Shown: in pieces, positions 2,991-64,000 of the stretch
Position numbering within the stretch: the first letter of the stretch is position 1
Layout: every line of letters begins with the position of its first letter
Assembly: GCF_000186865.1 (NCBI RefSeq)
Contig: NW_008705568.1
Coordinates: forward strand, 1,273,168-1,337,167
Direction of reading: 5' to 3'
Origin: Aureococcus anophagefferens
Taxonomy: Eukaryota > Sar > Pelagophyceae > Pelagomonadales > Pelagomonadaceae
Length of the DNA stretch: 64,000 bases
Made by a program: the position numbers and the translations under genes
The notes under the pieces: model-generated
Database searches by the model: none
Told to the model about the DNA's origin: nothing
Seen by the model: only the letters and a program-made list of their open reading frames with translations

Positions 2991-4155
2991 ATGGACGCCA
3001 TCCCGACCGCTCCGAGCGCCGCGGCGCCGCCCGCGGCGCCCCGGGAGCCCGCACCGGGCCCCGACGTCGACATGGTGGCTTCGCCGCCGCCGGATTCGCA
3101 GAGCGCCGCCGCCGAGCGCCCGGCGCCCGCCGCGCCCGCGCCCGCCGCGCCGAAGACCGAGGACGCGCCGCCCCCCGCGGCGACGACGATGCGCGTGCTC
3201 GTGCGGTTCGCGGGCGCCGAGGACGCGCCGGGCGTCGTCGTGCTCGCGCCGGACGACTCGTCCGTCGCGGCGCTCCGGAGCCTCGTCGCGGCCTGTGTGG
3301 AACTCAAATCTTCAACCCGACCGTTTCGACGCAAGGCTTTCTGCTGTGCTTCGAGAACTCGACGAGAGCAATCGATTCGTCCAAAAATCAGCCGAATCGA
3401 CTTCGATTTGACCGAGATAGAGAGTTCCGAAGTTTGGTGGGGACCCCCCAAACCAGCGGTTGATTTCCGCACAGGTCGCGGCCCGGGTCGCGGACCGCTT
3501 CGGCCCCGGCGCCAAGGTCGCGGCGCTCGCCCTCGACCGGACGCCCGTGCGCGGCGCCTTCGCGTGCTACGACGACGCGGTCTTCACGGCGACGGTGTCG
3601 CGCGACGCGGAGACGCAGGTCGGCGCGGGCGCGCGGCACGACGACGAGGCCTCGGACGACGACGGCCCGCCGAAGCTCATCCCCCGCGTGGAGGTCGCGC
3701 CGCCCGCGGACGACCGCGAGCTCCGGGCGACGGCGCGGCTCCTCTACGCGGAGCTCAGCCTCCTCACGGAGGGCCGCGACAAGGGCTACAAGACGAACGT
3801 GCGCCTCGCGCTCGCGCGCGCGGGCTGGCAGGTCAACGACGAGTCGAACCAGGAGCTCGGCGCGAAGCCGCCCGCCGGGTGGCCGGCCGTGGGCCGCATC
3901 CTCGAGCGGTCCAAGAACGCGTCGAAGACGTCGATCCGCACGATCACGGGCTCCAACGGCGTCGTGCGCTACCTCGAGCTCATCGCCAACGGCGCGTCGG
4001 ACGTCGCGGCCGGCGGCCGGAAGCGCAAGGCGGCGCCCGCGCCCGCCTACGACGACGAGTCGGACTCGCCCCTCATCGAGGCCAAGGCCGAGAGCGCGTT
4101 CGCCGCGCCCGTCTGGAAGTTCGCCGCGATGGCCGAGGCCCAGCTCAACGCCTAG
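2991..4155 (+). CDS. unrecognised protein split by an introner
   Basis: Exons 2991..3284 and 3475..4155, 324 residues. The start ATG at 2991 follows a short leader. Residues 1-65 are Ala/Pro-rich. A folded stretch then begins at MRVLVRFAG and continues across the splice (SLVAARVADRFGPGAKVAALALD). The middle (DDRELRATARLLYAEL to RYLELIANGAS) looks helical, followed by a basic KRKAA patch and an acidic tail. I do not recognise the family. The exon junction is phase 0 and rebuilds uninterrupted sequence across the insertion, which supports the gene being real. An N-terminal ubiquitin-like fold is possible but weak. Confidence 0.7.
3293..3474 (+). mobile_element. introner element 1, CTGTG subfamily
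   Basis: 182 bp with terminal inverted repeats CTGTGTGGAA / TTCCGCACAG, flanked by the 8-bp duplication GTCGCGGC at 3285-3292 and 3475-3482. The intron runs 3285-3474. Its GT is the first two bases of the left duplication and its AG is the last two of the element. Removing it leaves one copy of the duplicated target and restores frame (phase 0). The shared core GTCCAAAAATCAGCCGAA lies near the middle. The core runs in the sense direction of the host gene. Confidence 0.93.
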
Positions 4156-4303
4156 GGCGTAAGTGGAATTGCAATCGGGACTCGTGAGGTAGCTCCGAAG
4201 ACGTCGGGTGCGCACGCGACCCCTTCAACTCGGGTTCAATCGGTATTTCGTTGAGTTTTGGGGCTGCTGCGCTATGAGCTCGTGACATTGTGATGAGTGC
4301 GAG

Positions 4304-5656: not shown

Positions 5657-5661
5657 GGGGC

Positions 5662-7074: not shown

Positions 7075-7232
7075 GCTTTGTGGAAGCCGTTCAACGTGGC
7101 GGCGCGGCAAACCGCAAGCGCGCCAGCGTATAGTTGTGTGTGTCGACGGCCAATCGCGGTGTCGCCTCGCGTCGTCGCGGGAAGCCGCCTTTGTCCTCTC
7201 GTCGCCCGCGCCGCGCCGCGCCGGCGGAGCCC

Positions 7233-13088: not shown

Positions 13089-14144
13089 ATGACCGCGCTC
13101 CTGCGGCGCGCGCTGCTCTCCTGCGTCGTCGCCGGCGCCGTCGACGTGGCGACGCTCCGCGGCTCCACGATCGCCATGGTCGGCGACTCGACCATGCGGA
13201 CCCAGTTCGAGCGGCTCTGCGGCCTCCTCAACGCATCGGCCGCCCGGACGCCGGCGAAGCCGCTCGTCTTCGCCTGCGCCGGTCGCAACGTCACGGTGGC
13301 CTGGATGTCGCCCAAGGACCGCGGCGACTTTGGGTTCCACAAGGGCCTCGAGGCGCTCGGCCACGTGGCAGAAGCGCTCGGGAGGGCGCCGACGGCCATC
13401 TACGCGAACGGCGGGCTTCATTATCTGCATCTCTTGCCGGCTAGAGATTTCGAGTGCTTCCAGTGCTGGGCCTCGGCGGAGTTTTTCCTACGGCGTTTTG
13501 TTGTTGAGAGCCGGCGGCGCTACGCGGGCGCGACGTTGGTCTTCATGACGGGCCACGCGATCTGCCGGGCAGGACACAAAAATGTTCGAAACGACTTCAA
13601 TATGAAAGTAATCGCACGGGTTTGACATATCTTTTTCGCAGTCTAAAGAGATTCCGAGAGAAAGCGATCCGTCCAAAAATCAGCCGAAACGACTTCGATG
13701 TGACCGAGCTAGAGAGGTTCGAAGCTTTCGCTGGACGGGGCGTTCCACTGGTTGTTTCCTGCCCAGGCGATCTGCGAGGACCGCTACAACCGCGACTACG
13801 CGCGGCTCGTCGACCAGCTCCGAAACGACCCGCACGGCTACGCCGTGTCCTGCGTCCGCGCGCTGCGGCCCAAGTTCCCCATGGGCATGGACGCGGAAAT
13901 CCGCGCGCAGTGCCTCGCGTCGACGTTCACGCGCGACGGCGTCGCGCGGCTCAACGCGCGGCTCCTCGCGACGCTCGGGGGCCTCGACGCGGACGTCGGC
14001 GTCGTCGACGGCTTCGGCCTCACGGACGGCCGCTGCGACGAGACCAAGGACGGCCGCCACTACCCGGCGCGCGAGCTCGCCGAAATCGCCGCGCTCGTCG
14101 CGCTCCTGGCGCCGGACGCCGCGAAGCGGCGGGGCGAGGGGTAA
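13089..14144 (+). CDS. SGNH/PC-esterase-like secreted protein, split by an introner
   Basis: Exons 13089..13556 and 13767..14144, 281 residues. The start at 13089 gives MTALLRRALLSCVVAGAVD, a signal peptide or anchor. MVGDSTMRTQF matches the GDS block of the PC-esterase/TBL/NXPE family, where the Ser is the nucleophile of acyl transfer or ester hydrolysis on glycans. The matching C-terminal DxxH block is not clear; DGFGLTDGR and DGRHYPARELAEI are candidates, the second having the D-x-x-H order. The introner falls between LVFMTGH and AICEDRYNRDYARL, phase 0. Likely acts in the secretory pathway on cell-wall or surface polysaccharide. The substrate is unknown. Confidence 0.7.
13565..13766 (+). 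mobile_element. introner element 2, CTGGGCAGG subfamily
   Basis: 202 bp with ends CCGGGCAGGA / TCCTGCCCAG, flanked by GCGATCTG at 13557-13564 and 13767-13774 (exact). The intron 13557-13766 uses a GC donor from the left duplication and the element's terminal AG. Excision restores TGH-AICED in frame. It carries the common core in the sense direction. The interior is closer to the CTGTG copies (GACCGAGCTAGAGA), so the two subfamilies share one body with different ends. Confidence 0.92.
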
Positions 14145-14346: not shown

Positions 14347-16567
14347 ATGCTCGCGGCCCGCGCCGAGAAATCGGCCCAGGCGACGTTCCGCGTCGGGACG
14401 ACCGTCGCTGCCAAGCCCATCGCATTCGGCGCGAAATTCGCCGCGTCCGTCCCCGGCGACGCGCTCTACCGCGGCAAGATCGTGCGCCTCGAGGACGAGG
14501 GCGAGACGGAGGAGGCGCGCGTCTGGGTCGTGCGCTACGACGACGACGGCTCCGAGTACGCGACGAGCGAGAAGCACCTCAGCGCCGTCGCGCCCGCCGC
14601 GCGGCGCCCGACGACAACCGCGCGGCCCAAGGCCGCCGCGCCCAAGGGCAAGCTGCACAACCCCTTCGTCGGCAACCTCGACAAGTTCCGCATCGCCAAG
14701 ACGAAGCGGCCCGACGCGCCGGCGGAGGCCAAGCGGCCCGCGACGCCCGCCGCCGCGCCCGCGCCCGCGCCCGCCGCGCCCGCCGCGCCGCGGCTCGCGG
14801 ACATGCCGAAGCTCGCCTCCGCGCGCGCGGACATGCCGAAGCTCGTGCCCGCGCGCAAGCCGTCGAACGAGGAGGCGAAGCCGCCGAAGCGCGCGCGGCG
14901 CGTCGACTCGATCCGCGCTCTCATCCCCGCGCCGGAACCCGCGAAACTCTTCGCGCTCCTGGACCTCGACGGCACGCTCTTCCACATGATGCCCGAGGGC
15001 GAGCTCCCGGGCGGCCTCGACGTGATCTGCGAGGGCGTCGTGCCCGTCGACGGGCCCGACGGCCCGCGCCAGGTCATGGCGGTCAGGCGCGGCGCTAGGA
15101 AGCTCCTCTGCGACCTGCACGCCGCGGGCGCGGTCGTCCGCGTCGTCACGGCGAACTTGATCGGCGTCGAGGCCATCGCCGCCCTCGCGGCGAGCGAGGC
15201 CGACGGCGCCGAGCCCAGGGGCTGGGCGCGCGTCGCGCACGTCGAGGTCGTCCGAGACCGCGCGGCGGGCTCCTGTGTGGAAATCAAATCTTCAACCCGA
15301 CTTCAATGTGAGCGTATGCGACGGTTTCGACGCAAGCTCTTCTTCCACGCTTCGAGAACTCGACGAGAGCAATCGATTCGTCCAAAAATCAGCCGAATCG
15401 ACTTCGATTTGATCGAGCTAGAGAATTCTCAAGTTTGGCCCCGACGTCCCAGCTCACTGGTTGATTTCCACACAGGCCGGCTCCAAGAAGCTCCCCGCGG
15501 ACGTCGCCGCGGCGCTGCGCGCGGGCAACGGCTCCAAGTGCGTCATCCTCGACGACAACCCGACGGCCTGGGAGGCCTACGCGGCGCGCTACGTCTGGGT
15601 CGTGCCCCAGTACGACGTCCGCCGGCCGCTCTCGTCGCAGGCGCTCGAGGAGGAGGTCACGCTCCTGCCGCGCCTCTCCGCGCGCTGCCGCGACCTCTTC
15701 GCCAAGGCCGACCGGCCCCGGGCCAACTCGCAGAACGGCCCGACGCCCCGCGGCGGACCGCCGCGGCCGCGGTCGACCTCGCTCGACGACGCCGCGGCGG
15801 CGCCGCGGCCGCGCGCGTCGTCCTTCGACGACGAGAAGCGCAAGCCCAACGTCATCCGCACCTTCTCCGAGTCGCGGCCCCAGCTCTCGCGCCGGGCCGA
15901 GCCGGCCCGGAACCTCCAGCCCATCCGGTCCTTCGACGCCAAGCCGCGGCCGTCGATCCGGACCTTCGACGACGCCAAGTCGCCCAAAGCGGCCGCGCGG
16001 AACCTCGCGCCGCCGGCCCGGGCGCCCGCGCCGGCGCCGCGGGCGCCGCCGCCGAAGAAGGCGCCGGCGCCGAAGAAGGCGCCGCCGAAGCGGAAGAAGC
16101 GCGCGGACGACTGGGACTCGGACGACGACTCGGACGACTCGGACGTGCCCCTGAGCCAGCTCAAGCGCCGCCGCGCGGCGCCCGCCGACGACCTCGCCTG
16201 CGCGCCGCGCCGCAGCGGCCGGGCGCGCACGCCGACCGCGGCCGCGGCCGCGCGCGACGACTCCGACGCCGACGACTCCGACGACTCGTCCGCCGGCGGC
16301 GGCCGCGCGGACGACGACGACGACGAGGACGAGTGGGGCAAGCCGCCGGCGCCCGCGCGGCGCCGCCGCGTCGTCGTCGACGACGACGACGACGACGACG
16401 AGGCGCCGGCGCCCGCGCCCGACGCGGCGGCCGCCGCCGCGGCGCAGGCGGACCTCGCGCGCCACGCGGCGCACCTGCTCCGGCCGCCCGCGGCGGCGCC
16501 GCCCGCGGAGGCGCCCGCCGACAGCTCCTCCGGCGAGGAGGAGGACATGGACGAGGGCGCCGTTTGA
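14347..16567 (+). CDS. FCP1-like (HAD) phosphatase with Tudor-like N-terminus
   Basis: Exons 14347..15264 and 15476..16567, 669 residues. Residues about 13-80 (VRYDDDGSEYATSEKHL) look like a Tudor/Agenet-type barrel. Residues 201-333 carry the FCPH catalytic set: LLDLDGTL with D206 and D208, VVRVVTAN, and VILDDNPTAW with D332/D333. FCP1-type enzymes dephosphorylate the RNA polymerase II C-terminal domain in the nucleus. The long tail (400-669) is disordered with basic blocks and acidic Ser/Asp runs (SDDDSDDSD), typical of nuclear proteins. The introner lies between the second and third catalytic motifs, so it must be spliced for activity. A BRCT domain, usual in FCP1, is not seen. Confidence 0.8.
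15273..15475 (+). mobile_element. introner element 3, CTGTG subfamily
   Basis: 203 bp, ends CTGTGTGGAA / TTCCACACAG (perfect 10-bp inverted repeats), flanked by GCGGGCTC (15265-15272) and GCCGGCTC (15476-15483), one mismatch in 8. The intron 15265-15475 is GC-AG and phase 0. Excision gives RDRA-AGSKKL. The GTGTGG at the element edge is not usable as donor because it breaks the frame. The mismatch lies in the intronic copy, as expected if that copy drifts freely. Confidence 0.93.
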
Positions 16568-20191: not shown

Positions 20192-20199
20192 GGATGTTT

Positions 20200-21415
20200 C
20201 TAGGGCTTAATGACCCCGCGGTGGGGCACCTCGCGCCACCACGTCCCCGGCGCGTTGGGGTCCGGCGCGACGCGCGCGTGCTCCGACGGCCAGGCGGCCA
20301 GCAGGCCCCGGAGCGCCGCGTTCGGCGCCTCGAAGAAGGCCTCGAGCTCGGCCTCGAGCGCCGGCGACAGGGGCGGCGTCCGGTAGGCCGCCTCGTTCGC
20401 GTGGAGCCGGCGCCGGCCCGCGCGGCCCGGGAAGAGCCGGAGTAGCAGCTCCGGGTCGCGCCAGTAGGACTCGCTCTCCAGCACCGCGACGTCGTCGGCG
20501 TCGTAGTGCGCGAGCCAGTTTTTGAGGAGCGCGTAGTAGAGCGTCGTCGCCAGGAAGGGGACGTGCACGGGGCAGGAAGGGGACGTGCCGCCGCCGCGGT
20601 CCACCGAGCCGGGCCCCGTGACGGCCGCGCACGACGCGGGCCGCTCGGCCGCGATCCAGGGCCCGAGGCCCCGGCAGAGGGCCGCGTAGGCCGCGTGCGT
20701 CGGCGCGGGCCCGAGGAGCGCCGCCAGGAGCCGCGCCGCCGCGGGCGTTTTCAAATAGTCGAGCTCGACGCGCACCTGTGTGGAATTCAAATCTTCAACT
20801 CGACTTCAATGTGAGCGTACGCGACCGTTTTGACACAAGCGCTTCGGCTGTGCTTCGAGAACTCGACGAGAGCAATCGATTCGTCCAAAAATCAGCCGAA
20901 TCGACTTCGATTTGACCGAGAAAGAGAATTCTGAAGTTTGGTCAGGACCACCCAAACCAGTGGTTGAATTCCACACAGACGCGCACGTGCGCGTCCACCG
21001 CGGCGCCGAGGCGCGCGCCGATGCGCTGGTCGGCCTTCCAGTAGTTGTGCAGGGACCGGATGCGCTTCGCGGGGCGGCGCAGGAAGAAGATGGACACGGC
21101 CTTGGGCGCCGCGGCGCGCGCGGCGGCCGCGGCGTCGACGAGGTACGCCCACGCGTAGTTCGGGGTCGCGTCGACGCTGGCACCGCTTTCGGGGAAGGAC
21201 CGCCGGTAGCAGCCGGCGACGTCGCGCTGGTAGAGGCAGCCCGGCTCCTTCGTCGCGCCCTCGACGAAGGGCGCCGCGTCGAGGAGGGCGAGGTAGGCCT
21301 CGGACGTGCCGCCCTTGTCGATGCCCGGGATGAAGAGCGACGGCGTCTGCGACGCGTTCAGGGCCAGGGGCGCGCCGAGTGCCATAGCGACGAGCGGGAG
21401 GAGGCGGAGGAGCAT
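20200..21415 (-). CDS. secreted/Golgi sulfotransferase, split by an introner
   Basis: Exons complement(join(20200..20775,20987..21415)), 334 residues. The N-terminus MLLRLLPLVAMALGAPLAL is a signal peptide or anchor. FIPGIDKGGTSEAYLAL corresponds to the 5'-phosphosulfate loop (PKxGTT-like) that binds PAPS, and SIFFLRRPAKRIRSLHNYW to the 3'-phosphate-binding RxxxxRxxSxY/H region. DATPNYAW is a further family block. It should transfer sulfate to a carbohydrate acceptor. The introner is inserted between VDAH and VRVELDYL, antisense to the gene. The stop lies 8 bp from the stop of the convergent PEP-synthase-like gene. Confidence 0.8.
20776..20978 (+). mobile_element. introner element 4, CTGTG subfamily, antisense to host gene
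   Basis: 203 bp, ends CTGTGTGGAA / TTCCACACAG, flanked by ACGCGCAC (20768-20775 and 20979-20986, exact). The host gene is on the minus strand, so its intron is 20986 down to 20776, with GT from the duplication (GTGCGCGT in sense) and CACAG from the element's other end. The core points against transcription. The frame is restored as VDAH-VRVELD. Confidence 0.93.
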
Positions 21416-27313: not shown

Positions 27314-27403
27314 GCGGGGTTGCGACGCGTCAAACCCGTCGGGCGCAGTCAAGCAAGTCCGACGGGAGTGGATACGTTTCACGGCAAGTGTCGTGTCGAG
27401 GTA

Positions 27404-38695: not shown

Positions 38696-39921
38696 ATGGG
38701 CGCCCTTGCCTTCATAGCTCTGCTCCTCGCGACTCCCACGTCGTCCCTCGCGGCGCCGCGGAGCGTCGCGCGCGCCGCTCACGCCCGGCGGTCGGCGCCG
38801 CGCATGGCCGTCGCGCCCGGCGACATCGTCGTCATGATGAACGGTTTACCCGGCAAGATGGGCTGCAGCGTCGGCGAGGCCATCGTCGCGCGCGGCATGG
38901 AGCTCGCGCCGACGGCGCTGACGGGCCCCGACTTCGCCGGCGACGTCGTCGACGTCGCCGGCACGAGTGTAACGCTCGTCGCCGGCGGCACGGACGCCGC
39001 GGACGCCGCGGCCGGCGCGCTCAAAGCCGACTGCGCGGCGCGCGGCAAGACGCTCGTCGCCGTGGACTTCACCGTGCCCGCGGCGGCGGAGGCGAACGCG
39101 CGCTACTACGCGGCCCACGGCCTGAGCTTCGTCATGGGCACGACGGGCGCGGACGCGGGCGCGCTGAGCAAGAGCGTCCTCGACGGGACGCACTCCGCGG
39201 TCATCGCGCCGAACATGTCGAAGCAGATCGTCGCGCTGCAGGCCGTCGTCGAGCGCGCGGCCAAGGACTTCCCCGGGGCCTTCGCCGGGTACGCTCTGGA
39301 CGTCACCGAAAGCCACCAGGCGTCGAAGATCGACACGTCGGGCACGGGGCAGGACAAGGGTGATTCAACGTCGCTTCAATGTGAGTGTTCCGCGCGCGCG
39401 CGTTTCGGAAACAGCACCCACGCTTCGAGAGCGCTCCAAGAGATGATCGCTCGTCCAAAAATCAGCCGAAACGAGCGGAAAACGACCGAGATAGGAGCCT
39501 TTGAAGTTGGGAATTTCGCACCCTTTTCCTGCCCAGGTCGGGCACGGCCAAGGCCGTCGTCGCGTCCCTCGCCGCGCTGCAGGACGAGCAGATCTGGTCC
39601 AGCGCCAACGCCAAGGTTTCTGCCGCCATCGAGCGCATCGACAAGGTGCGCGACGAGGCGTCCCAGCTCGACGGCGCGGGCGGCCTGCTGGGCAAGGTGC
39701 CGGCGGAGCACCTGGCGGGCCACGCGTACCACACGTACGGCCTCACGTCCGGCGACGGCACCGTGCGCTTCGAGCTCCGCCACAACGTCAACGGCCGGTC
39801 GACCTACGCCGAGGGCGTCTGCGACGCGACCCTCTTCCTCGCGGCCGAGCTCGCCAAGGGCGAGCCCTCCACGCGGCTCTTCGACATGATCGACGTGCTG
39901 CGCGCGGGCGCCATGAGCTAG
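38696..39921 (+). CDS. dapB: 4-hydroxy-tetrahydrodipicolinate reductase, plastid-targeted
   Basis: Exons 38696..39336 and 39537..39921, 341 residues. The presequence MGALAFIALLLATPTSSLAAP is signal-like and followed by Arg-rich sequence. The nucleotide-binding start VMMNGLPGKMGCSVGEAI (GxxGxMG), VDFTVP, VMGTTGA, VIAPNMSKQI and the substrate-site HQASKIDTSGTAK (the H-xx-K-x-D-x-PSGTA motif) are all characteristic of DapB. The introner interrupts exactly that last motif (DTS-G), phase 2, and only the spliced product is functional. The C-terminal part keeps HAYHTYG and VRFELRHNVNGR. The enzyme makes tetrahydrodipicolinate in lysine synthesis. Diatom and plant DapB are plastid enzymes. Confidence 0.9.
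39345..39536 (+). mobile_element. introner element 6, CTGGGCAGG subfamily
   Basis: 192 bp, ends CGGGGCAGGACAAGGG / CCCTTTTCCTGCCCAG, flanked by GTCGGGCA at 39337-39344 and 39537-39544 (exact). The intron 39337-39536 is GT-AG and phase 2. It carries the core in sense direction, with a GATCGCTCGTCC variant shared with element 5, so elements 5 and 6 form a close pair within the subfamily. Confidence 0.93.
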
Positions 39922-43803: not shown

Positions 43804-46800
43804 TCAGCCGAGCCACGCGAGGCTCGACCGCTTGAAGTGCGCGCTCGACTTCGTCCGCAGGAGGTCGCGCTCCGTCTCGAGGCGCCGGAGCTTCGCCTGC
43901 GTGCCGCCGCCGGCCCAGCCCCGCAGGCAGGCGCACGCGTTGACGAGCGCGACGCCGAGCGCGCCGGCCAAGACCATGGCGCCCAGGACGAGCGCCGTCC
44001 CCGTGGACCCGCGGCCGCCCCCCTCGGTAATCGCGAAGGGCAACGCCGAGACCGCGGGCCCGAAGACGAGGGGCGCGAAGGCGAAGATCTCCTCGAGGAT
44101 CGCGCCTTGTAGGTCTTCCTGCATGGCCAAAAACACGCCCAGCAGCGAGATGAGCACCTTCTTCGCGCGCGACACGTCCGCGAGCTGCTCGTCGATGCGC
44201 CTGTGTGGAAATCAAATCTTCAACCCGACTTCAATGTGCTCGTAATCGAAGAATTTGGACCAGACTCTTTCGCTTTGCTTCGAGAACTCGACGAGAGCGA
44301 TCGATTCGTCCAAAAATCAGCCGAATCGACTTCGATTTGGCCGAGCTAGAGAATTTCAAAAGTTTGGTCGGGACGTCCCACACCAGTGTTTGATTTCCAC
44401 ACAGCGATGCGCTGGTCGTCGACGACGTCCTCGATCGCGCCGTCGGCCACATCCGCGTTGCCGCCGGCGAGCGTGTTGATCTGGCGGCCGATGGGCGTGT
44501 GGCGCAGGTCCGGCCGCCGCAGGAGCACGTAGAACGTCGCCGAGCCCGGCAGCGTCGCCTCGTAGGGGAACGCGGCGCTTTTCAGCGGGTCCATGTGCGT
44601 CGACACGTGGTTTTTGACCGTCGCGGGAATCAGCACGAAGAAGATGGCGATGACGCCCGGCTTGATGATGAGGAAGTAGAGCGCCAGGGAGAAGCCGCAG
44701 TCGAAGAGCCAGAGCTTCGACTCCCGGCGGCCGAGGCCGCTGCCCATGGCCACGAGGAAGTACGCGAAGTACGCGTTGATGAGGATCGCCAGCGCCCAGG
44801 CGAGCGCGTAGGCCCTCGGCGTCGGCGGCTCCTCCGGCGCCTCGAGCTCGCCGCCGAAGCGCTCCTGGCACGTCCGGATGATGCGCCGCTCGGATCGCGC
44901 GAACTGCTCGCGGCGCACGAAGTCCGCGAGCTTGTCTTCCACGTCCCGGGGCGACCCGCCGCCGGCCTCGACGTCCGCGAGCTCGCGCTCCCAGCGCTCC
45001 GCGCGCCGGAGCTGGTGCTCGGCCTTGGCCGCGATGGACAACAACCACTGGCGCTCGTCGAGCTCGTAGTGCCAATAACCCAACATCTTCCGCTCCAGAT
45101 GGTCGCAGAACGACGCCGCGTGCGTCGCCCGCGGGCAGCCCTTCTTCCGGAGCACGGCGCCGTGGCGCCGGAGCTGGGCCCGCCGCGCCTCGATGGCCCG
45201 CAAAACGAGCGGCGCGAGTTGCTTCGCAAAGTGGTGGCACTCGAGCGCCGCGGGCGCGTGGCACGCCTCCAGCGGCGCGTCGCCGAGCGCCTTGCTCGAG
45301 CCCAGCGTGCGGAGCCCCCGCGCCGGCGCCTCCGACGCGGCCCGCGCCAGGAGGTGCGTCACGGTGCGCGCGGCGCCCGCCTGTGTGGAATTCAACCACT
45401 GGTTTCGGGGGGTCCCCACCAAACTTCAGAATTCTCTAGCTCGGTCAAATCGAAGTCGATTCGGCTGATTTTTGGACGAATCGATTGCTCTCGTCGAGTT
45501 CTCGAAGCACAGCCGAAGAGATTGCGTCAAAAATGTCGCATACGCTCACATTGAAGTCGGGTTGAAGATTTGAATTCCACACAGGCGCCCGCGAGCTGCT
45601 CGCCGACGCCGTGGCGGTCCGCGGCGCGCGCGGGCGCCGCGCCGGCCTCCTGCTCCAACTTGGCCAGGAGCGCGCACCGCCAGTCCGCCGACGGCGCCGA
45701 CGCTTCGAGCTCGAGGTCGTCGTCGTCGTCGTCGTCGAAGGCGCCCCGGAAGGCCGCGCGCTCGCTGTGGGACGGTCGTGCTTCCTCGGGCTCCATCGGC
45801 GCCTCGGGCGCGACGCTCAGCCGCTCCCGCGCGACCGAGAGCACGCCGTCGAGCCGCTCCCGCGCCTCGGACAGCGAATCGATGGTCGCGTGCCACTCGG
45901 GGGCCCGCGCGGGTTCCAGCTCGCGCGCGAGGCCCGCCTCCGTCGTCTCGAGCTGGTCGATGGCCGCGGCGAGCTTCTTCGCGGACGCGTCGGACGGCGG
46001 CGGCGCCGACGGCACGGGCGCCGCGCCCGGCGACGGCGGGCGGTCGCGGTTCCCGGCGACGAGCCGCGCCTCGGAGTCGCCGAGGCGCGCGATGGCGCTC
46101 GTCAGCGCCGCCCGCCGCGACTCGAGGGGCCCGCGGGGGTCCTCGTCGTCGACGGCGTGCCCCTCGTCGTCGTCGGAATCCGCGAACCGCGGCCCGGGCG
46201 CGACGAAGTGGTGGATCGTCGACTCGACGTCGTTGAAGTCGATGACGACGCGCCGCGGCTCGACGTCGGCGCCGGGCGGATGGTCGAAGATCTCGTCGTC
46301 GACGTCGCCGGACGTCCGGGGGTCGTGGTCCGCCCGGGGGTCGTGGTCCGCGGCCGGGGGCGCGCCGACGCGCCCGTCGTCGCGGTCCGGCGCCGGGGGC
46401 GCGCCGAAGCCCTCGTCGTCCCGGAGCTCCGCGCGGAGCCGCTTCGAGATGCCCTTGCGCAGGTCCCTGTTCTCCATGACGACGCTGCCCCGCCCGCGGA
46501 CGTGGCGCCGCGGCAGGCGGTCCGACGCGTCGCCGACGGAGTCCTTGCGGCCGAGCCGGAGCGACTGGCACCATCCGAACTCCGGCGCGGGCGCGAGGAG
46601 GTAGTTCTCCACCAAATGTTCGAAGAGCTTGACGGCCGGCAACAGGCAGAGCAGGATGAGGCAGAGCAGGAGGTAGTGCGAGCTCTTCGTCGTCGAGTCG
46701 TCGGGCACGGGCGCGGAGACGCACTCCTGCGAGCAGAGCTTCCAGTCGCACGCGCGCGCGGCCTCGAAGCGCGCGCCGGCGACGTAGGGGAAGCGGGCCT

Positions 46801-49800
46801 CGTAGTGGACGTGGAGCTCCCCGCGGAGCCAGTGCTTCGGGTCGCCGCAGTCGCGCGCGGTCCGCTGGCCCGCGCACCGGTCGTCGAAGTCCGGGTATTC
46901 GAGCGAGTTCTGGAGCGCCATGGCGTACATGAACATGAGGCACTCGAAGCCGCAGAGCAAGGCCCGCGCCGCGCGGCTCACGGTCCTCGAGTAGACGCCC
47001 CAGAAGTTGAGGAACGGGTGGCCCGTCCGCAGGCCCCGCGAGATGCGTCTCCGCCAGTCGCCGACGACGCCCTCGTAGACGTCTGACGCGTCGTAGGACG
47101 CCGACGCCGCCTGCGCCGCCGCCGCGCGCGCCGCGAGCGCCAGGGAGCTGCCGAAGTTGCGCCGCTTCAGCCGCCGCTTCCGGTCGCGCGCGTCGAGGCG
47201 TCTGCCGACGGCGCACATCGCGGCGACGAGGCCGACGAGCGCCGCGAGCGCGTAGAGCATGTAGGCCGCGCGGCGCGGGTCCGGCAACACCGCGAGGTCG
47301 CCCGCGTAGGACGCGACGAGCGACGTCGGCGTGAGCTCCGTGGAGCAGTCCTCGGGCGCGCCCGTCGCGACGTCGCAGTCGCACCGGGCCAGGCCCGTGA
47401 GCGCGTCGACGCTGAAGACGCACTTGGGCGCCTCCCAGATCGTGAAGCCCGTCGAGTAGATGGCGCAGGCCTTGACGCCCCGGGGGCACGCGACCTCGTA
47501 CGTGCCCGGGAGGCCGTTGCAGTATTTCGTGACGACGTCGCCGGAGGGGCAGGCGTAGGACACGTTGCCGACGAAGCCGCAGAGGCAGGTCACGTTCGCG
47601 AAGTCGCTCTTGTTGAAGGGCGACGCCACGGCGCCGCCCGCGGGGTCGCCGATGACGAGGGACGCGGAGACGTTGCGCGAGTTTCCCGCGGACGCGTTCG
47701 CGCGCGCGAGGCGCCGCCGCCGCGCGGCCGCGTCGCCGGCGTCCTCGACGGCGTAGACGCCGAGGCGCACGACGGCGCCCGCGAGGCGCGCGTCGGACCG
47801 GTAGTCGTCGGCGACCTCGGCGACCTGGACGTCGTAGTTTCCGGACCCGCCGAGCGCGTCGGGCAGGTCCACGGACGAGTTCGAGCCGGGCGGCCGCAGC
47901 GCGCGCGCGGCGCCCGTGGCGTTGGCCGCGAGGCGCTGCGACGACGTCTTGAGCATTTTGGACGACGTCGTCGCGGCGAACTCTCCCGGCACGGCGGCCA
48001 CGAGCTGGGCCTCGAGGAGCGCGTCGACGGTTGCCGCGAGCGCGTCGGACGCGTTCGAGTTGTTCCCCGGGGCCGAGAAGAGGTCGGACTCGAGCAGCGA
48101 GCTCAGCGTCCGGGCGACGGACGCCGCGGCGTTGGCCGTGACGCCGACGGCCGTCGACGACGCCGCGAGCGCGAGCGCGGTGTCCAGGGCCGTCGTCGCC
48201 GCGGCGCCGTTGTTCAAGGTCGCGAGCGCCGCGGCCGGGCCCTGGAGCGCGAGGGCCGCCTGCTCGACGAGGGAGCTGTCCGCGTCGAGGGACGCGGACA
48301 CGGCGGCGACCGACGCGACGAGGTCGCCGACGACTTTCGAGTCGTCGGCCGCGGCTTTCGAGGTCGCGACGACGACCTGGCACACGGTCTCCGACTCGCC
48401 GAGCGCGAAGGCCGTGGACAACCGCAGGTCCGTCGCGTTCGCGAGCGCCGCGCCCGCGAGCGTCGTCTCCGCGACGCGGACGCTCAGGCTCGCGCGCGCG
48501 TCGCCGCCGACGGCGTCGTAGGCGACCGCGGCGACGGTGACGTTGGGCCGCCCCGCGGGGAGGACGACGTCGCCGACGTCCGGCTGGAGCGTCGCCACGC
48601 GGAGCGTCGACTCGTCGCCGTCGTCCTCGAGGCTCGTGAACGCGTAGGTCAGGGGCAGGTCCTCCGACACCCAGCCGGACGTCCTGAACGAGAACAACGT
48701 CTCCAAGGCGACGCCGGCCGCGGGCGACGCGGAGATGCGGCCCGCCGCCGGCGGCGCGACGGCGACGAAGCGCACGCTCGCCGCGCCCCGGGCGTCCTTG
48801 TGTTGCAGGGAGGCGGTGAGCGTGAGCTCGTAGGCCGCGCCCGCGACGAGCGACCCCGGCGAGAGCACGAGGTCGTGAGCGTAGGCGACCGCGTTAAAGG
48901 CGATGGTCGTCGCCGTGTTCGCCCAGGCCTCGAGGGGCAACGCGTCCTCGAGGGCGCCGCCCGTGAGGCGCCACGTGCTGTTGAGCCCGAGCGCCGGGTC
49001 CGCGGCCGCGCCGAGGCTACTCGGCGCGACGGCCCCGTAGAGGACGACCTTGGCCGCGCTCGGGACGCGGCTCGGCACCTCGGAGGCGTCGATGGCGGCG
49101 AAGGGCGGATCGTCGTCGACGAGCTCGAGGGCAACGGACGCCGTCGACGACCGGCCGTCGGCGGCCGTGACGTTCACGGCGAACGTCGCCCGCCCGACTT
49201 GGGACAGGCCCGCGAGCCCCAGGGCCTCCGACGTCTCCGCCGCGAGCGCGTCGCCGGCGGGGCAGGCGGGGCCCTCGCAGGCCCAGGCGAAGCGCAGGCC
49301 AGCGGCCTCGCCGCTGACGCCCTCGACGTCCGCGTCGTACGAGGCCGAAGCGTCGACGAAGACGACCCCCGACAGCGGCACGACGCGGTCGCCGCCGAGG
49401 ATGAGCGCGACGACGTCGCCGCGGCCCACGTCGACGGCGACGGCCGCCGTGACGTTGAGCCCCAGGGACACGTCCGTGACGACGACGGCGAGCGTGTACG
49501 CCGCGGCCGCTTGTAGCGCGTAGGCGCCGAGCTTGAAGGCGCGCGGGTCCCGCGACGTCGACGCGAGGTCCAGGGCGCCGCCCGCGGCGTCGTAGGCCGT
49601 CCAGACGTAGGCGACGTCGCGGTCCGCGGCCGCGCGGCCGTCGCAGGACGTCGCGATCGCGTCGACGTTGACGGCGAGCGGCGTCGCGCGGTTCGCGAGC
49701 GACCGCGCGACGCCGCCGACGACGACGACGTTCGGCGGCGTGTCGCTCCGCAGGGCGACGGTGAAGGGCGCGGACGTCGCGGCCCCGCCCAAAAAGTTCT

Positions 49801-52524
49801 CGAGGCCGAGCGTCGCCTCGAGCGACGTCACGCCCACGCTCGCGAGCGCGACGAGCTCCGCGGACGTCGCGGCGAGGGCGTCGCCGCCGCGCGCGGCCAT
49901 GGCGTCGAGCGCGCTCAAAGCGAGCGACGCGTTCGAGCCGTTGCCCGGGACCCAGTAACTCGCGTTCGGCGCCGCCGCGACGGCCCAGGAGTACGTCATG
50001 GGCCGGCCGCCGCCGCCCGACGACTGCGAGCTCTCGAGGGTCAGGCCCTCGCAGGCCGACGCCGTCGTCGGCCCGGAGACGACGGCCGCGGGCACGAGGG
50101 GCGGGTCCGGCGCCTCCGCGGGCACCGCGGACGCGTTCGCGTAGTCGTAGCAGTCGCAGCGCGCGCCCGCGGCGCAGTAGAGCCTGGGCGGGAACAAAAA
50201 TAGTCGACACGGCGAGAGAAACGATGCGTCCAAAAATCAGCCGAAACGACGGCGATGCGACCGAGCGCGAGAGGTTTTGCTGGACCAGTCCAAGCTCGCT
50301 GGTTGTTTCCGGCACAGAGTAGAGCTTGACGACGCCCGCCCTGAGCGACACGGGCTCGCCGGGCACGAGGCCCCAGGCCGCCGACACGTCGCTCCGGAGC
50401 GTCGCCGCGTCGCTCCAGAAGCACGTCGCGGCGCCCGCGTCCGCGAAGGTGAGCACGGCGCCGCAGCCGAATTCGACGCCGGCCTCGTAGCCGAACTGGT
50501 CCGTGGGCGCGTCGAACTCGACGAGCATCTCCGCGCCCGTCGACGTGAACGTCGCGCCGGCGAGCATGGGCGAGTCGGGCAGGAGGCCCTGGTCCCGGAG
50601 CACGTAGCAGGGCACGGGCGTCGGCGCGGCCGACGGCGCCGACGTCGTCGGGAGGAGCGTCGGCGGCGCGGACGGCCGCGCGGTGGGGTCGCCGAGGCGC
50701 ACCGTGGGGCGCGGCGTCGCGGATGTGGGCCGCGGCGTCGGCCCGGGCGACGGGCGGCGCGTGGGCGGCGCGGACGGCGCGGGCGCGGGGACGCCCGTCG
50801 GCCGCGGCCGCGGCGCGGCCGACGGCGCGGCTGAGGGCGCGGGTATAGGAGCAGCCGTAGGGCTCGGGCTCGGAGCCGCGCTCGGCGGCGGGACGATGAC
50901 GAGCGAATCCTCGTCGATCGTCACGTTGGCGAAGGACGCGCTGTGGTTCAGCAGGTGCGCCGCCCAGGAGCCGTCCTCGAGCGAGAGCCGCAGCGAGGGC
51001 GCGAGCTCGACGAAGTAGCGCTCCGAGTCGATGGTGAAGCTGATGTAGGTCGACTCGCCCTCGTCGAGCCTCCGCCGCGCGGCGGACGTCACGCCCGTGA
51101 CGGACACGGAGCTCGCGCCGTCGTCGAGCGCGGCCTCCGTCGCGCTCTCGAAGGCCTCCGCTTCCTCGTCGCCGAAGTCGTCCGGCGAGAAGCCGCTAAG
51201 CGTCAGGGACGACGCGTAGGACTTGACGGCGAACGACGGCGCGGCCGACGGCGGGGGGGACGGCGGCGGCGACGGGTGGCTCACGACGGCGCCGCCCTCG
51301 AGGCAGAAGGTGTAGGCCCCGTCTCCCCCGGGGACCGTCTCGACGTCGCCGACCGTGAAGCTCACGTCCGCCGCCGGCCCCTCGTCGCCAAAGTCGAAGG
51401 TCGCCGTGTAGCACCCGTCGGCGGCGCAGACGTAGGTCGCGAGCGCCGAGCCGGGCTCGAGGGAGATCGACTCGTCCGAGCCGTCGACCGAGACCGAGAC
51501 GGTCGCCGACGCCCAGGCCTCGGCGGACGGCGCGCGCTTGAGCAGCAGCACGGACTCGCCCGACGCGCAGTCCGGCGTGGGGTAGGACGTGGGCGCCAGG
51601 GAGGGCGTCGGAGACGGCGCCGAGGTCGTCGGCGAGAGCGACGGGAGCGCGCTCGGCGCGCCGGACGGCGACGGGCTCGGCGCGTTCGACGGCGCGGGGC
51701 TCGGCGCGGCCGTCGGCGCGGCGCTCGGAGTCGTCGTCGGTAGCGCCGACGGAATATTCGACGGACTCGGGCTGGGATCCAGCGTGGGCGACGACGACGG
51801 ACTCGGACTCGGCGCGGACGACGGAGCCGCGGTCGGCACGGCCGACGCCGTCGGCGCGGACGTCGGCGCGCTCACGACGGACCCGTCCTCGTCGATGCAG
51901 AAGTCGTAGTAAGTGGTGCGGCCCTTGCCCAGCTTGAAGACGTCGCTGCCGGTGCCGTCGAGGAACCAGATGCGCTGCGTCAGACCGCTCGTGTCCTTGG
52001 GCTTCTTCGAGTGGAAGACGTAGGTGAAGCACGCGGCGGACACGCACGCGTAGCGGGTCGGCGGGTACTGGCACTGGCCGTCGTCGTCGCGCTCGCACGA
52101 GAAGAGGAGCCTCTCGTTCGTGAAGTTGCGGCTCGGCGTGCTCACGAACGTCGCGAACGTCACGTACTCCGACCAGAGCTTGTTGTTCTCGTAGGTGACG
52201 CGCACCGGGAAGCGCGCCTGGCTGTTGCCGTCCGGGTCGCAGGAGATGAACGAGGGTACGGGGGTCGGCTGGATGGAGGGGAGCGGCGTGGGAAGCCCGG
52301 TCGGAGATGCCGACGGAAGCGCCGACGGGCTCGGCGTGGGAGCGTGTGTCGGGACCGACGCGGGAATAGGCGTCGGTTCCGCCGAGGGCGTCCGAGTGGG
52401 CGCGCCGCTCGGAAGCGACGATGGAGCCTACCAAGCATGACGGTGACTCATTGTTTCCCCACCCAAAATCTCTCGAAAATCGTCACGGCCACAGGACGCT
52501 GGATGGAGCAGGGGTGGGTTGCAT
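43804..52524 (-). CDS. giant PSAPS-rich REJ-like polytopic membrane protein
   Basis: Exons complement(join(43804..44200,44413..45380,45593..50183,50326..52427)) keep one frame for 2,685 residues; a 27-nt first exon 52498..52524 is tentative. N-terminal Pro/Ser/Ala/Thr linkers (SAPTSAPTASAVPTAAPSS type) alternate with three Cys-containing extracellular modules, one beginning FISCDPDGNSQARF. A REJ-like region follows (SACEGLTLESSQSSGGG, PMTYSWAVAAAPNASYWV, repeated Ala/Val/Asp-rich beta modules), then a Cys-rich GPS-like stretch (CLCGFVGNVSYACPSG). At least seven hydrophobic spans follow, with a large cytosolic loop after the third. REJ modules occur in polycystin-1 and sperm receptors. No C-terminal channel signature is seen. 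Three introners interrupt it. Confidence 0.75.
44201..44404 (+). mobile_element. introner element 7, CTGTG subfamily, antisense to host gene
   Basis: 204 bp, ends CTGTGTGGAA / TTCCACACAG, flanked by CGATGCGC at 44193-44200 and 44405-44412 (exact; GCGCATCG in gene sense). The intron 44412 down to 44201 is GC-AG and phase 2; it joins VVDDQ to RIDEQLADVS. The core is antisense to the gene. Confidence 0.93.
45381..45584 (-). mobile_element. introner element 8, CTGTG subfamily
   Basis: 204 bp, ends CTGTGTGGAA / TTCCACACAG, flanked by GCGCCCGC at 45373-45380 and 45585-45592 (exact; GCGGGCGC in gene sense). The intron 45592 down to 45381 is GC-AG and phase 0; it joins GVGEQL to AGAARTV. The core is in sense direction, opposite to element 7 in the same gene 1 kb away. 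Confidence 0.93.
50184..50317 (+). mobile_element. introner element 9, short copy with hybrid ends
   Basis: 134 bp, flanked by AGTAGAGC at 50176-50183 and 50318-50325 (exact; GCTCTACT in gene sense). One end is CTGGGCGGGAAC (CTGGG type) and the other, read inward, CTGTGCCGGAAAC (between the two types). The intron 50325 down to 50184 is GC-AG and phase 2; it joins VVKL to YCAAGARC. It lacks about 60 bp of one half of the body but keeps the core GTCCAAAAATCAGCCGAA. Confidence 0.88.
52428..52497 (-). other. 70-bp ordinary intron in the giant gene
   Basis: On the minus strand it begins GTCCTGTGG after CCATCCAGC and ends TGCTTGGTAG before GCTCCATCG, phase 0, joining two PSAPS-type segments (TPAPSS-APSSLPSG). 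Without it the frame is closed by the TAG that forms the acceptor. A similar ending (TTCGGTAG) closes the 47-bp intron of the paralogous gene. Confidence 0.6.
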
Positions 52525-60909: not shown

Positions 60910-60914
60910 GCCGT

Positions 60915-61283
60915 CGTCGCGTTGTCGCCGCCGTCTAGGCTCGTCACCCGCCGACGGCTCCGGGCCGCGCCCCGCAGCCGTGGGCCTCGGCGATCGCGCA
61001 ACGTCGTCGGTCCCCGCCGACCGCTCCGTCGGTTGCCCGTGGATGGCTCCGGAGCAGCACGTTCGGAGCCGGAGCCGCGGTCCGGACTCTCGGAGCAGCG
61101 TTCCGGCCTCGGCCATCGCGGCTCGCGAGTCTAGACTAGTTATAGCTTGAACTAGTGGCCCAGGGATGCTAACAGGTGGCCCATGGATGCGGCGCGTCGA
61201 TGTCCGGGAGCGACGCTTCGACTCGGAGAAGCAACGGTCTGGATCGCGACGCTCTTCGAGGCGCGGCTTCGCGTGTCGCGACT
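60915..61283. other. intergenic, no gene seen
   Basis: Between the second surface gene and the 3' end of nucleotidyltransferase gene B. Mixed composition, including GGATGCTAACAGGTGGCCCA-like short direct repeats near 61155-61185 (GGCCCAGGGATGC / GGCCCATGGATGC). No domain recognised. Confidence 0.5.
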
Positions 61284-64000
61284 TCACGAGCCGCGTCTTT
61301 TGCCGGTGCCGCGCCGGCGGAAATCGGTGTACTCCAGGGGCGGCGGCGGCTCCGTCTTCGTTCGCTTCGGCGGCCGTGCTTTCGGTGGCGGCGACGCGCC
61401 TCGGCGGCGGCGCGGCGTCTCCACAGGCTCGGGCGCCGGCTCGGGAATCAGCGGGGGCGTGCCCACGAAGAAGCCGCTCTCGAGGATGCGCTTGACGAAC
61501 GTCGACTCGACGCCATCCTTCCTCGACTCGATGATTGCGGCAAGAGCCGCGTCCGCGACCAGCTTGTCGATGGCGCTTTGGTCGTCGGTCCGGGCGTCTT
61601 GGAGCGCGCTGGCGACGCGCTCCGCGAGCGAGAGGGCGACTAGCGGCGACTTCGTGTAACGTAAAAACGAGTTTGTGGCCTTCGGCGAGGTGTTCTTGAT
61701 GGCGTCGACGAAGGTCCCGGGAAACGCGGAGCCGAAGAGATAGTAGGCCGGTGGGTAGAAGTGATACACCACGTCTTTTGCGTTCTTCACATCGCGTTTA
61801 ACGATGTCGTCGCGTCTAACGACTTCGATCGTCCAGCCCGGCCCCAAACCGAAGTCGCGGCCGTCGTACGTCGACACGTGGCTGCGAGCCTTGTGGTTAT
61901 TCGACGTACCGACGTAGCGCGCCGACGTCCCGCCCGTCACGTAGGCATAGCGAGGGTGGTCGACGTGGGACTCGAAGAGCATCTGCGGTGAGATGGAGGC
62001 GTCCTCGTAGCCGCCGACGACGTAGGACTTGTCCCACGGCCGCGTCGATTCACGTAGGATCTTTGCAACATGTTGCTTCGCTTCGTCTCCCAATTGTAAG
62101 TAGCCCTCGCCGTCTTCTTTGACCGGTACGTAATACCCTTTATTCTTGATCTCCATCATGAATTCGAATAATTGGTGATCTTGGCCGAGGACCGTTTTTA
62201 ACCCAGGCAGCTCCAGCCCGGGGACGGACGCGAGCTTGATAGTACGCATACGGGGGTTCTGGAAGACCTCGCCCGTGTACGGGCATCGAAGCTTCTCTTG
62301 CCCTGGAAAGTATCGGTGCTTCCAAAGCATCGAAGTCGGCAGCAAGCAAAACCCAACGACGCGACCCTCGACGCGGACGTTGAGCAGGAACACGTCGAAG
62401 CTTTGCTCGTCGTAGTGCTTGCGCATGGGGAACGCGAGCCGATCACCACGGGGTGCGTTGGTAGATTTTTCTTGCATCTTCACTTCTAGGTCGTCGACCA
62501 GGATGAACGCGTCGATGATCTGGCATGGGAAATCCGTGATCTTGATGGCAATGTCGGTGACTTGCTGGAAAGCGCGGAAGTTTCCAGCCTCGTTTGACGT
62601 CATCATGTCCTCGTAGCACGTCTTCGTGGTCTCCCCGTCGACCCAGAGCGCCGCGAGCTTGGCCACGAGCTGCTCCTTCGTGATGCCCTCGGCGTCCCAG
62701 AGTGCCTTGCCCTCGTCGTGGTTCGGGTCGACGACGATCGCGACGGACGCGGGCATCGTACTGATGTACCAGGGGCCGTCCTCGATATCAGGCCGCTGCT
62801 GAGCGTGCCCAGTTGGCGTCATGCGGTCGAGGAGCTCCTGGCCCGTGCTGAAGAAGAGGAAACGGTCGAGCTCGTAGTCGTAGCGTACGTACGGGACGTG
62901 CGCGTAGGCCTCGACGTCACTCGGGTACAGCGAAAGCACCCTGGCGCCGCTCCAGAAGCACCGCTGCGTCTTGAACTGTACTCCAAGGGCGGCGCCGTCG
63001 AACCCGATGGCGGGCACGCGGCTGACGATCGTCGCCGCCTCGAAGTCGTCCTCGTGGACCAGCACCGCGTCCACGACATCGTCCTCGTCGAACCAGCGAG
63101 GGACGAGCCGGACGGGAGCGCCGGACCGGTCGCACTCGTCGGCGACCTCGGACATGACGAGGTTCTCCATCATCGTCTTCCAGTTCCCGAAGAAGCCCAT
63201 GCGCCCGGCGCCTGTGCGGGAATCAACCAGTGAGCCGCGACGTCGCGGTCGAAGATTCTCCAGCTCGGTCGAATCGAAGTCGATTTGACGAATTTTTCGA
63301 CGAGCGATCTTCCACCCCGACGAGTCCTCGACGGAGGACGAAAGATTCGCGTCGAGACCGCTCGAATGCGCCCACGGTGAAGTCGTGTTGACGTCGACGC
63401 GGCCCGGCGCCCGGGCAGGGCACCATCGTGTGCTTGATGAGGTATTCCTCCATGCCGTCAACGGCCCCCCTTGACAGCTGGCGTCCCCACACGACAGTCA
63501 GGCCTTGGTCGCGCTTCCGGCAGACTCGGTTGAGGACCGCGCGTCGGTTCCGGGGCTTCTCGAGCTGGGCCTCCGAGACGACGACCGTGGTCGTGCCCTG
63601 GGAGATCCGGTCCAGCGCCGGTGCGAGGTCGCCCACCTCCATGGCGTGGCGCTCGACGTCGGGGACCCACGAAAAGACAAGCCTTTTCTGAACCAAAGTG
63701 AGCTGCGTACAGTCCCCGTCCAGCCAACGGCTCAACTCGTGGCGGAACGCGGGCTCGTGGGCCACGCCGACCTCGAAGTCGCGGCCGCCGATCTTTACGA
63801 CGAGCGTGTAGAGCTTGGAGTTGTAGTACTTCGTGCGCACATCGAGGCCCGCGTCCTTGAAGACGCGCTGGACCGACGCGGCGGCTTTGTCTAGAGGTCG
63901 ACCGTACACGTGGACGTCGATGTCGCTGTTGCACTTTATCTTCTTGCGGTCCAGCGCGAAGTTGGCGGAGCTGCCGTAGACGTGGCCGTTGGCCACGAAA
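61284..64000 (-). CDS. nucleotidyltransferase-like protein B, 5' end outside window
   Basis: Exons complement(join(61284..63211,63411..>64000)), at least 838 residues; the frame is still open at the window edge. The first exon carries VYGSSANF, NSDIDVHVYG and DFEVGVAHEPAF, a polymerase-beta-type nucleotidyltransferase core in which the third acidic position is Gly (VGV, compared with IDV in gene A), so catalysis is doubtful. The C-terminal region matches gene A throughout: FDVFLLNVRVEGRVVGFCLLP, LWKHRYFPGQ, YAYVTGG, FGLGPGWTIEVV and HFYPPAYYLF. It has an added CPYTGEVF segment, and the tail is basic (RRRGASPPPKARPPKR). The introner joins MVPCPG to AGRMGFFGNW. Confidence 0.72.
63212..63402 (-). 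mobile_element. introner element 10, diverged CTGTG copy
   Basis: 191 bp, flanked by CCCGGCGC at 63204-63211 and 63403-63410 (exact; GCGCCGGG in gene sense). The 3' end in gene sense, GATTCCCGCACAG, is intact. The opposite end (CCGCGTCGACGTCAAC) has decayed, which is tolerated because the donor GC comes from the duplication. The intron 63410 down to 63212 is phase 1. The core is mutated (GTCGAAAAATTCGTCAAATC) but recognisable, in sense direction. Confidence 0.85.

Follow-up and report, generated by a model that had tools for sequence, protein, structure and literature searches.

Introner-type MITEs in Aureococcus exons: predicted introns with a GT or GC donor from the target duplication and an AG acceptor from the element

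The ten short repeated elements in the 64-kb window (the whole stretch of DNA analyzed) are very probably introners, that is, short non-autonomous MITEs that insert into exons and would be removed as spliceosomal introns. Border patterns support the Aureococcus-type reading, with a putative 5' splice site from the duplicated target and a putative 3' AG from the element. In the proposed mechanism, a MITE would insert into an exon and generate an 8-bp target duplication. The upstream duplication begins with GT or GC, and this dinucleotide, which is host exon sequence, would act as the 5' splice site. The last CAG of the element, preceded by a pyrimidine-rich stretch that is part of the terminal repeat, would act as the 3' splice site. 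The removed intron would span from the duplication start to the element end, and the mRNA would therefore be unchanged. We infer that transposition is of the cut-and-paste type with a transposase supplied in trans, that the copies are actually spliced and that unspliceable insertions are purged.

Ten copies and their host genes in the window

All ten elements claimed in the preliminary description were present at the positions given there, with the donor octamers as claimed. Two end-types were distinguished: type A carries CTGTGTGGAA at both ends, and type B has ends that are inverted copies apart from the second base. In the following list, the donor duplication and the element together form the predicted intron.

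3285..3474, + strand: copy 1, type A; donor duplication GTCGCGGC 3285-3292, element 3293-3474, exonic duplication 3475-3482
13557..13766, + strand: copy 2, mixed B-like ends CCGGGCAGGA...TTTCCTGCCCAG; donor duplication GCGATCTG 13557-13564, element 13565-13766, second duplication 13767-13774
15265..15475, + strand: copy 3, type A; donor duplication GCGGGCTC 15265-15272, element 15273-15475, exonic duplication GCCGGCTC 15476-15483 (7/8)
20776..20986, - strand: copy 4, type A; element 20776-20978, donor duplication GTGCGCGT 20979-20986, exonic duplication 20768-20775
35784..35982, - strand: copy 5, type B; element 35784-35974, donor duplication GTCGTGGC 35975-35982, exonic duplication 35776-35783 (7/8)
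38696..39921, + strand: gene for DapB (4-hydroxy-tetrahydrodipicolinate reductase), which contains copy 6; its spliced protein matches PF01113 and PF05173 and has homologues; the inferred start is the ATG in the spliced reading, and the stop codon of that reading marks the end
39337..39536, + strand: copy 6, type B, in the DapB gene; donor duplication GTCGGGCA 39337-39344, element 39345-39536, second duplication 39537-39544
43807..52292, - strand: REJ-domain coding region that contains copies 7, 8 and 9; codon model, borders approximate
44201..44412, - strand: copy 7, type A, within the large gene that has the REJ domain; element 44201-44404, donor duplication GCGCATCG 44405-44412, exonic duplication 44193-44200
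45381..45592, - strand: copy 8, type A, in the REJ-domain gene of copy 7; element 45381-45584, donor duplication GCGGGCGC 45585-45592, exonic duplication 45373-45380
50184..50325, - strand: copy 9, short (134 bp), mixed ends, spliced frame shared with copies 7 and 8; element 50184-50317, donor duplication GCTCTACT 50318-50325, exonic duplication 50176-50183
63212..63410, - strand: copy 10, decayed, A-like acceptor end; element 63212-63402, donor duplication GCGCCGGG 63403-63410, exonic duplication 63204-63211

A candidate GT or GC donor at the start and the element's own AG as the putative acceptor were seen in all ten copies, as previously described. The 8-bp duplication claimed for every copy is perfect in eight, and copies 3 and 5 match at only 7/8 positions. 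The copies had been taken for one small element; nine of the ten do share the core CGTCCAAAAATCAGCCGAA within 3 mismatches, but they are not uniform, as at least two end-types and a mixed third occur on this common core. In copy 10, the duplication and the acceptor-side CAG are intact, and the donor-side end has decayed. The density, presented earlier as the striking signal, proved ordinary for the Aureococcus genome, since the genome-wide rate predicts 4.9 core matches for 64 kb and the window holds 9 (Poisson P(>=9) = 0.065).

To assign strand and frame to the genes, we trained a codon model on four ORFs of the window that match Pfam families. In the first pass, each element appeared as a non-coding or frame-switch gap between coding sequence on the same strand, and after excision of the ten predicted introns the codon HMM read a single uninterrupted frame over 10/10 junctions. 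The earlier claim of exact frame restoration holds in this sense; however, an equal cut point in both duplication copies restores the frame arithmetically, and the result is thus evidence of exon location, not of splicing. What supports the predicted splicing independently is that, read in the called gene sense, the introns start with GY (GT or GC) and end with AG. The REJ training ORF extends 66 bases into copy 8 and 53 bases into copy 9; as this ORF and the DapB training stretch are the interrupted genes themselves, the call for copies 6, 8 and 9 is not fully independent. Among 14 other stretches of the window where the coding signal drops out, no clear non-introner intron was seen, by a method that short or in-frame introns could escape. 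Most of these stretches looked like gene boundaries, and 54815-55038 is the remaining possible non-introner intron.

The DapB protein is identical to that of A. anophagefferens at 316 of 318 compared residues. Excision of copy 6 restores ESHQASKIDTSGTAKAV at the junction, which is matched in two chloroplast DapB structures and in the aligned relatives. Seven of eight aligned relatives (P0001, P0003 to P0006, P0010 and P0011) have no insertion at this site, including P0003, a protein named A. anophagefferens. The P0001 sequence could derive either from genomic DNA with an empty site or from a transcript after splicing, and P0003 is a predicted gene in which 27 residues are missing elsewhere too; hence neither proves splicing. 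In P0002, an A. anophagefferens gene model, a GT within copy 6 is used and 11 residues are kept. Among the other hosts, the REJ-domain region gives a spliced frame of 2685 aa, stop to stop, over its three junctions, and the spliced protein of the copy 5 gene matches RXYLT1_C just above the cut-off and Exostosin_GT47 below it. The insertion of copy 2 is apparently shared by the environmental relative P0121, whose ORF runs straight through it; this read-through may represent genomic DNA or a retained intron.

The genome-wide family, its borders and its two end-types

The preliminary description had proposed counting copies, donors and orientations across the genome. This count gave 3,790 core matches (control, 0), GC donors in 107 of 181 copies (59%) and the core in both senses. 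Matches lie on both strands, which rules out a chromosome-scale strand bias. From 192 examined copies, 189 were delineated, with differing flanks, and 3 could not be; for the 189-copy set, 8 copies near a locus end and 4 duplicates were set aside. The modal element lengths are 192 or 203 bp.

A GY donor at the duplication start together with an AG at the element end, in the sense called from codons, was found in 181 of 189 copies, against a background of 20% for GY (P about 1e-114). The frame was continuous after excision in 173 of the 179 copies with long enough flanks, and retention would shift the frame or meet a stop in 170/174. In a restricted set, without the window and without loci picked by similarity or ends, the values were 146/153 for GY/AG and 138/144 for frame continuity. 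The duplications of the 181 copies are perfect in 136, with one mismatch in 34 and two to four in 11. Eight copies were exceptions to GY/AG by script. Four of them fit by eye once small indels are allowed; two (L082 and L083) agree with the rule only when read against the codon-called sense, and their flanks are weakly coding; L008 is truncated; and the type-B copy L119 lies in the orientation that has no AG at its end.

The features of introners are found in this family: many similar copies at unrelated intron positions, 8-bp duplications and terminal inverted repeats. At the sequence level, one splice site lies in the element and the other comes from the duplication (181/189), and removal is predicted to leave the mRNA length unchanged (173/179 genome-wide, 10/10 in the window, and the DapB motif).

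The sense relative to the core is 46 and 42 in type A and 67/26 in type B. Judged from their ends, 60 of 88 type-A copies could splice from either end, whereas 91 of 93 type-B copies would be spliceable only as they lie and 2/93 either way. This one-way spliceability is due to the single mismatched base in the terminal repeat. Among type-A copies, the donor-side CTG has changed in 28/88 and the acceptor-side CAG in 1/88 (Fisher 1e-8; restricted set, 22/68 against 1/68, 9e-7). The type-B acceptor is CAG in 93/93. The ends begin as inverted copies, but the acceptor-side end alone is conserved, not its mirror image.

On a tree of 63 type-B copies, 7 changes account for the polarity labels, whereas 500 shuffles of the labels required 12 on average and never so few. 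Nevertheless, 5 of 13 minority-polarity copies have a majority-type nearest neighbor, which counters the view of type B as two independent lineages. Type-B polarity is thus mostly inherited, with mixing.

We also searched for an autonomous partner. Neither the hAT domain PF05699 nor KDZ PF18758 had a match in the genome, and the search control was silent for both; the MULE domain PF10551 had no match with a control that did respond. Absence is therefore not shown for hAT and KDZ. The type-B end pattern with a different interior occurs at 9 places, against 2 for the reversed control, and the 7 of these 9 that were read are all ordinary B copies, with no autonomous type-B element among them. The type-A pattern occurs at 3 places (control, 0), all of them A-type copies by eye and none an autonomous element; a script located the right-end duplication in 2/3. 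No transposase with introner ends was found at the 10 end-pattern places read, all of which were MITE-like copies.

Alternative explanations and known elements

Splicing might instead use sites inside the element and leave extra codons, as in one family from an Aureococcus MAG (Gozashti 2022, Fig. 2F). Type B does contain an internal GTGAGTG in one orientation, and the gene model P0002 takes an internal GT in copy 6, which adds 11 residues. However, the seven DapB relatives named above have no insertion at that site, and internal sites leave the GY at the duplication start unexplained in 181/189 copies; we regard this alternative as very unlikely. A transposase preference for GY-containing targets, which would make the GY rule a matter of target choice and not of selection for splicing, is highly improbable. 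It could account for the enrichment of T as the second base of the duplication (41%, compared with 22% among background GY octamers), the slightly raised A at position 7 (16.6% against 11.8%, p = 0.064) and the duplications ending in RC (54/181 against 22% background, p = 0.016). Yet the GY rule tracks gene sense and is needed on the donor side only, whichever way the core points, and a symmetric element blind to the gene strand cannot produce a rule in gene sense. The type-B polarity and asymmetric end decay are also hard to explain without splicing.

RNA-level copying, by reverse splicing and reverse transcription, would agree with copies that lie mostly in genes and are frame-continuous in nearly all testable cases (173/179), but it conflicts with the 8-bp duplications and inverted ends. 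Reverse-spliced RNA should also keep its sense, and the core lies in both senses relative to the gene in type A and type B; we give this explanation almost no weight. Ordinary MITEs that break genes and stay unspliced are equally implausible: the read-through ORF of P0121 and the end of L119 without AG would suit them, whereas the GY/AG rule, the conserved acceptor ends and the frames intact on both sides, including those of DapB in the lysine pathway, speak against them.

Removal as introners is the reading retained, and the class is already known for A. anophagefferens, since the host matches this species and its introners are in print; the agreement claimed earlier is in line with the sequence tests run. 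Introners of A. anophagefferens reportedly carry one splice site and co-opt the other, as Huff, Zilberman and Roy are said to have described in Nature in 2016. By protein match, they belong to the same species as the copies here. They are described as having direct repeats and terminal inverted repeats of constant length (PMC7789003), as here, and a characteristic length of about 210 bp (PMC9481584); for comparison, element plus duplication in type A most often come to 203 + 8 = 211 nt. Introner family 4 of Aureococcus sp. MAG TARA_AOS_82_MAG_00129 (Gozashti 2022, PMC9860276), from the same genus, likewise has an 8-bp duplication; however, it is described as carrying both splice sites and adding 12 bp to the transcript, whereas the copies here carry the 3' site only and are predicted to add nothing. 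The introners of the unrelated Symbiodinium microadriaticum are given a 4-bp duplication in the same source, against 8 bp here. Amoebophrya introner elements share direct repeats at exon/intron borders and inverted repeats with our copies, but the account in PMC7789003 gives them 3-5 nt repeats and mostly non-canonical sites, in contrast to the 8-bp duplications and GY-AG borders here.

MITEs of the hAT superfamily generate 8-bp duplications and prefer nTnnnnAn targets. The elements here share this duplication length, and the type-B donor end reads CAGGG; with regard to the target preference, a signal of T at position 2 cannot be separated from GT splicing, and the p value for A at position 7 is that given above.

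GC donors and implications

In host exons, GC outnumbers GT 3.6 to 1, and GC insertions are computed to survive about 0.40 times as often as GT insertions. Iwata and Gotoh (2011, PMC3033335) reported that 39.6% of A. anophagefferens introns are GC-AG, which they called an 'enigma', and described the U1 5' end of this species as normal. The splice motifs of A. anophagefferens and its introners are called canonical in the account of PMC7789003, in contrast to the 107/181 GC donors here. An Rfam search of the genome for U1 snRNA was empty, and its control was silent as well; the U1 5' end ATACTTACCTG occurs twice in the genome against 3 times for the reversed control, and Rfam recognizes neither place. 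We consider it somewhat probable that GC-AG introns are a by-product of introners, with the donor being whatever GY the exon supplies, and that the family is split into an ambidextrous A and a polar B, in which a lone mismatched end base fixes the usable orientation and two lineages are polarized at opposite ends.

Introners are a leading case of transposons that make introns wholesale, and the Aureococcus genome holds thousands of copies. Because type-A ends begin as mirror images, comparing them measures 3' splice-site selection inside single elements, and the introner donors measure how well GC serves relative to GT. Gene models can misplace such introns, as in P0002. The copies also suggest why many A. 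anophagefferens introns start with the rare GC.

The ten copies and their place in coding exons

We located the window at C8:1273168-1337167, within a genome of 49.05 Mb in 86 contigs. All ten elements listed in the preliminary description were found at their sites, and each predicted intron comprises the donor-side 8-bp duplication, which starts with GT or GC (GY), and the element, which ends in AG. The duplication claimed for every copy is perfect in eight, whereas copies 3 and 5 match at only 7 of 8 bases. The 19-base core CGTCCAAAAATCAGCCGAA is carried by nine of the ten at up to three mismatches; copy 10 is too decayed for a core match, and its duplication and acceptor-side end are intact. 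The density, presented as the striking signal of the window, proved ordinary for the genome (nine core matches vs 4.9 expected, P = 0.065). The copies and gene discussed individually are:

13557-13766, plus strand, copy 2
15265-15475, plus strand, copy 3
35784-35982, minus strand, copy 5
38696-39921, plus strand, gene for 4-hydroxy-tetrahydrodipicolinate reductase (DapB)
39337-39536, plus strand, copy 6

Other stretches of the window were recorded as follows:

27392-27934, tandem array of 11-base period with a low coding score
29954-30345, 392 N (unread bases)
50748-51776 and 59572-60694, separate stretches with partly common 24-base repeats, probably low-complexity coding sequence
54815-55038, 224-bp low-coding stretch in a minus-strand coding region, one frame open by eye, perhaps a rapidly evolving exon or an ancient intron
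56036-56995, 165-bp tandem repeat, with a 300-bp stretch in five copies spaced 165 bp (four 93-100% identical to the reference, one 66%)

Four ORFs of the window that matched Pfam families served to train a codon model, which then called strand and frame over the window. The resulting profile has a gap at every element, flanked by same-strand coding stretches. The training ORFs include interrupted genes, and one of them overlaps copy 8 by 66 bases and copy 9 by 53; the calls for copies 6, 8 and 9 are therefore not fully independent. After excision of the ten introns, all ten junctions lie in one continuous frame, which bears out the placement of every copy inside a coding exon. The exact frame restoration was thus seen at 10/10 junctions, but it is no evidence of splicing in itself: it arises because of the duplication and hence shows exon location.

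Splice-site rule and element ends across the genome

Genome-wide, the core had 1,925 forward and 1,865 reverse matches at up to two mismatches (control, 0 and 0), and 2,184 matches were exact. Once 8 copies close to a locus edge and 4 duplicates had been set aside, the window and 147 loci yielded 192 different copies, of which 189 were delineated. This sample is non-random: 146 of the 189 copies lie on contig C1, most were found by the exact core, 18 came from similarity-picked loci, and nine from end-picked loci. With the gene sense of each copy called from flanking codon usage, the duplication starts with GT or GC and the element ends with AG in 181/189 copies, against a GY background of 20%. 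The restricted set, which leaves out the window and the similarity- and end-picked loci, gave 146/153.

Among the eight exceptions, four fit by eye after small indels (loci L064, L129, L145, and L147), two follow the rule if the sense called from codon usage is reversed and have weakly coding flanks (L082 at 3039, and L083), and one is truncated (L008). The last, L119 (about 400-620), is a type B copy in a coding flank, oriented without AG at its end; it is possibly unspliced or cryptically spliced. The frame is continuous in 173 of the 179 copies with long enough flanks, even though some 12% of the introner-free part of the window scores as non-coding; the copies are therefore concentrated in genes. 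Retention would shift the frame or meet a stop in 170/174 frame-continuous copies.

The copies were split by end similarity into types A and B, and a mixed third end-type was counted under either. Type A (n = 88) has the same end, inverted, on both sides. In gene sense, however, the acceptor side reads CAG in 87/88 vs CTG on the donor side in 60/88 (Fisher 1e-8; restricted set, 67/68 and 46/68). To our knowledge, these ends differ in role only in 3' splice site use; their unequal conservation is selection within single elements. Type B (n = 93) has acceptor CAG in 93/93, and its donor-side end is CAG, CGG, CCG, or AAG in 91/93 (restricted set, 77/78), which leaves those 91 copies without AG in the other orientation. 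Relative to the core, type A orientations are near equal (46 and 42), whereas those of type B are unequal (67 and 26). Its two polarities fall into largely separate lineages with some mixing. We infer that only one end is usable in each B lineage and that copies inserted the opposite way are lost; L119 seems to be one that has persisted.

In the mixed end-type, one end resembles CTGGGCAGGA and the opposite end resembles GGTTGTTTCC...CAG, which suggests end exchange between types A and B. It was seen in copies 2 and 9, L042 at 214, L067 at 4040, and L072 at 795.

Insertion sites compared with homologous proteins

Copy 6 interrupts the DapB gene, whose predicted spliced protein matches both DapB domains. 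The junction falls inside ESHQASKIDTSGTAKAV, which has a close match in two chloroplast DapB structures and is uninterrupted in seven of eight aligned relatives. The eighth, P0002 from A. anophagefferens, is identical to the window protein at 316/318 compared residues, both differences lying in the altered C-terminus of its model. Ten of its 11 additional residues equal the read-through of copy 6, so the same insertion is present in another assembly. In the P0002 model the donor seems to have been set wrongly, at an internal GT of the introner, and other annotated introner borders in A. anophagefferens may carry the same error. Neither P0003 (named A. anophagefferens; without 27 residues elsewhere) nor the environmental P0001 has an insertion at this site.

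The sole match for copy 2 is the environmental protein P0121, which reads through an introner at the same site that looks like the same insertion. The donor-side codon is Val (GTN) in P0121 vs Ala (GCG) in the window, indicating a GT donor in the former and a GC donor in the latter. Since the donor duplication is intronic, this change is free for the protein, yet it matters for splicing.

Element identity and a proposed origin of GC donors

By their anatomy, the elements are classed as MITE-type introners. The 8-bp duplication and the type B CAGGG end recall hAT elements; a hAT-like target signature, A at position 7, was not significant in the sampled duplications (p = 0.064). No transposase was found in the genome by family (hAT PF05699, KDZ PF18758, MULE PF10551) or end-pattern searches, two of the three family-search controls being silent. 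The match with published introners was upheld, as the DapB species match and the MITE-type anatomy place the copies with the A. anophagefferens elements described in PMC9860276, PMC7789003, and PMC9481584. The original finding is real and correctly interpreted. Elements of this class have been published before for this species, and what the sample adds is statistical: the survival of donors, the comparison of mirror-image ends, and the polarity of type B.

Among the 181 rule-fitting copies, 107 donors are GC and 74 GT, against 78:22 at GY positions of the flanking exons, which puts the survival of GC donors at about 0.40 times that of GT donors. The 59% GC donors here exceed the 0-50.0% given per introner family by Gozashti (2022), a gap perhaps due to annotation favouring GT. 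Iwata and Gotoh (2011, PMC3033335) reported 39.6% GC-AG introns and a normal U1 5' end in A. anophagefferens, and called this abundance an enigma, with high genomic G+C noted as part of the cause. Donors taken from GC-rich exons would explain it.
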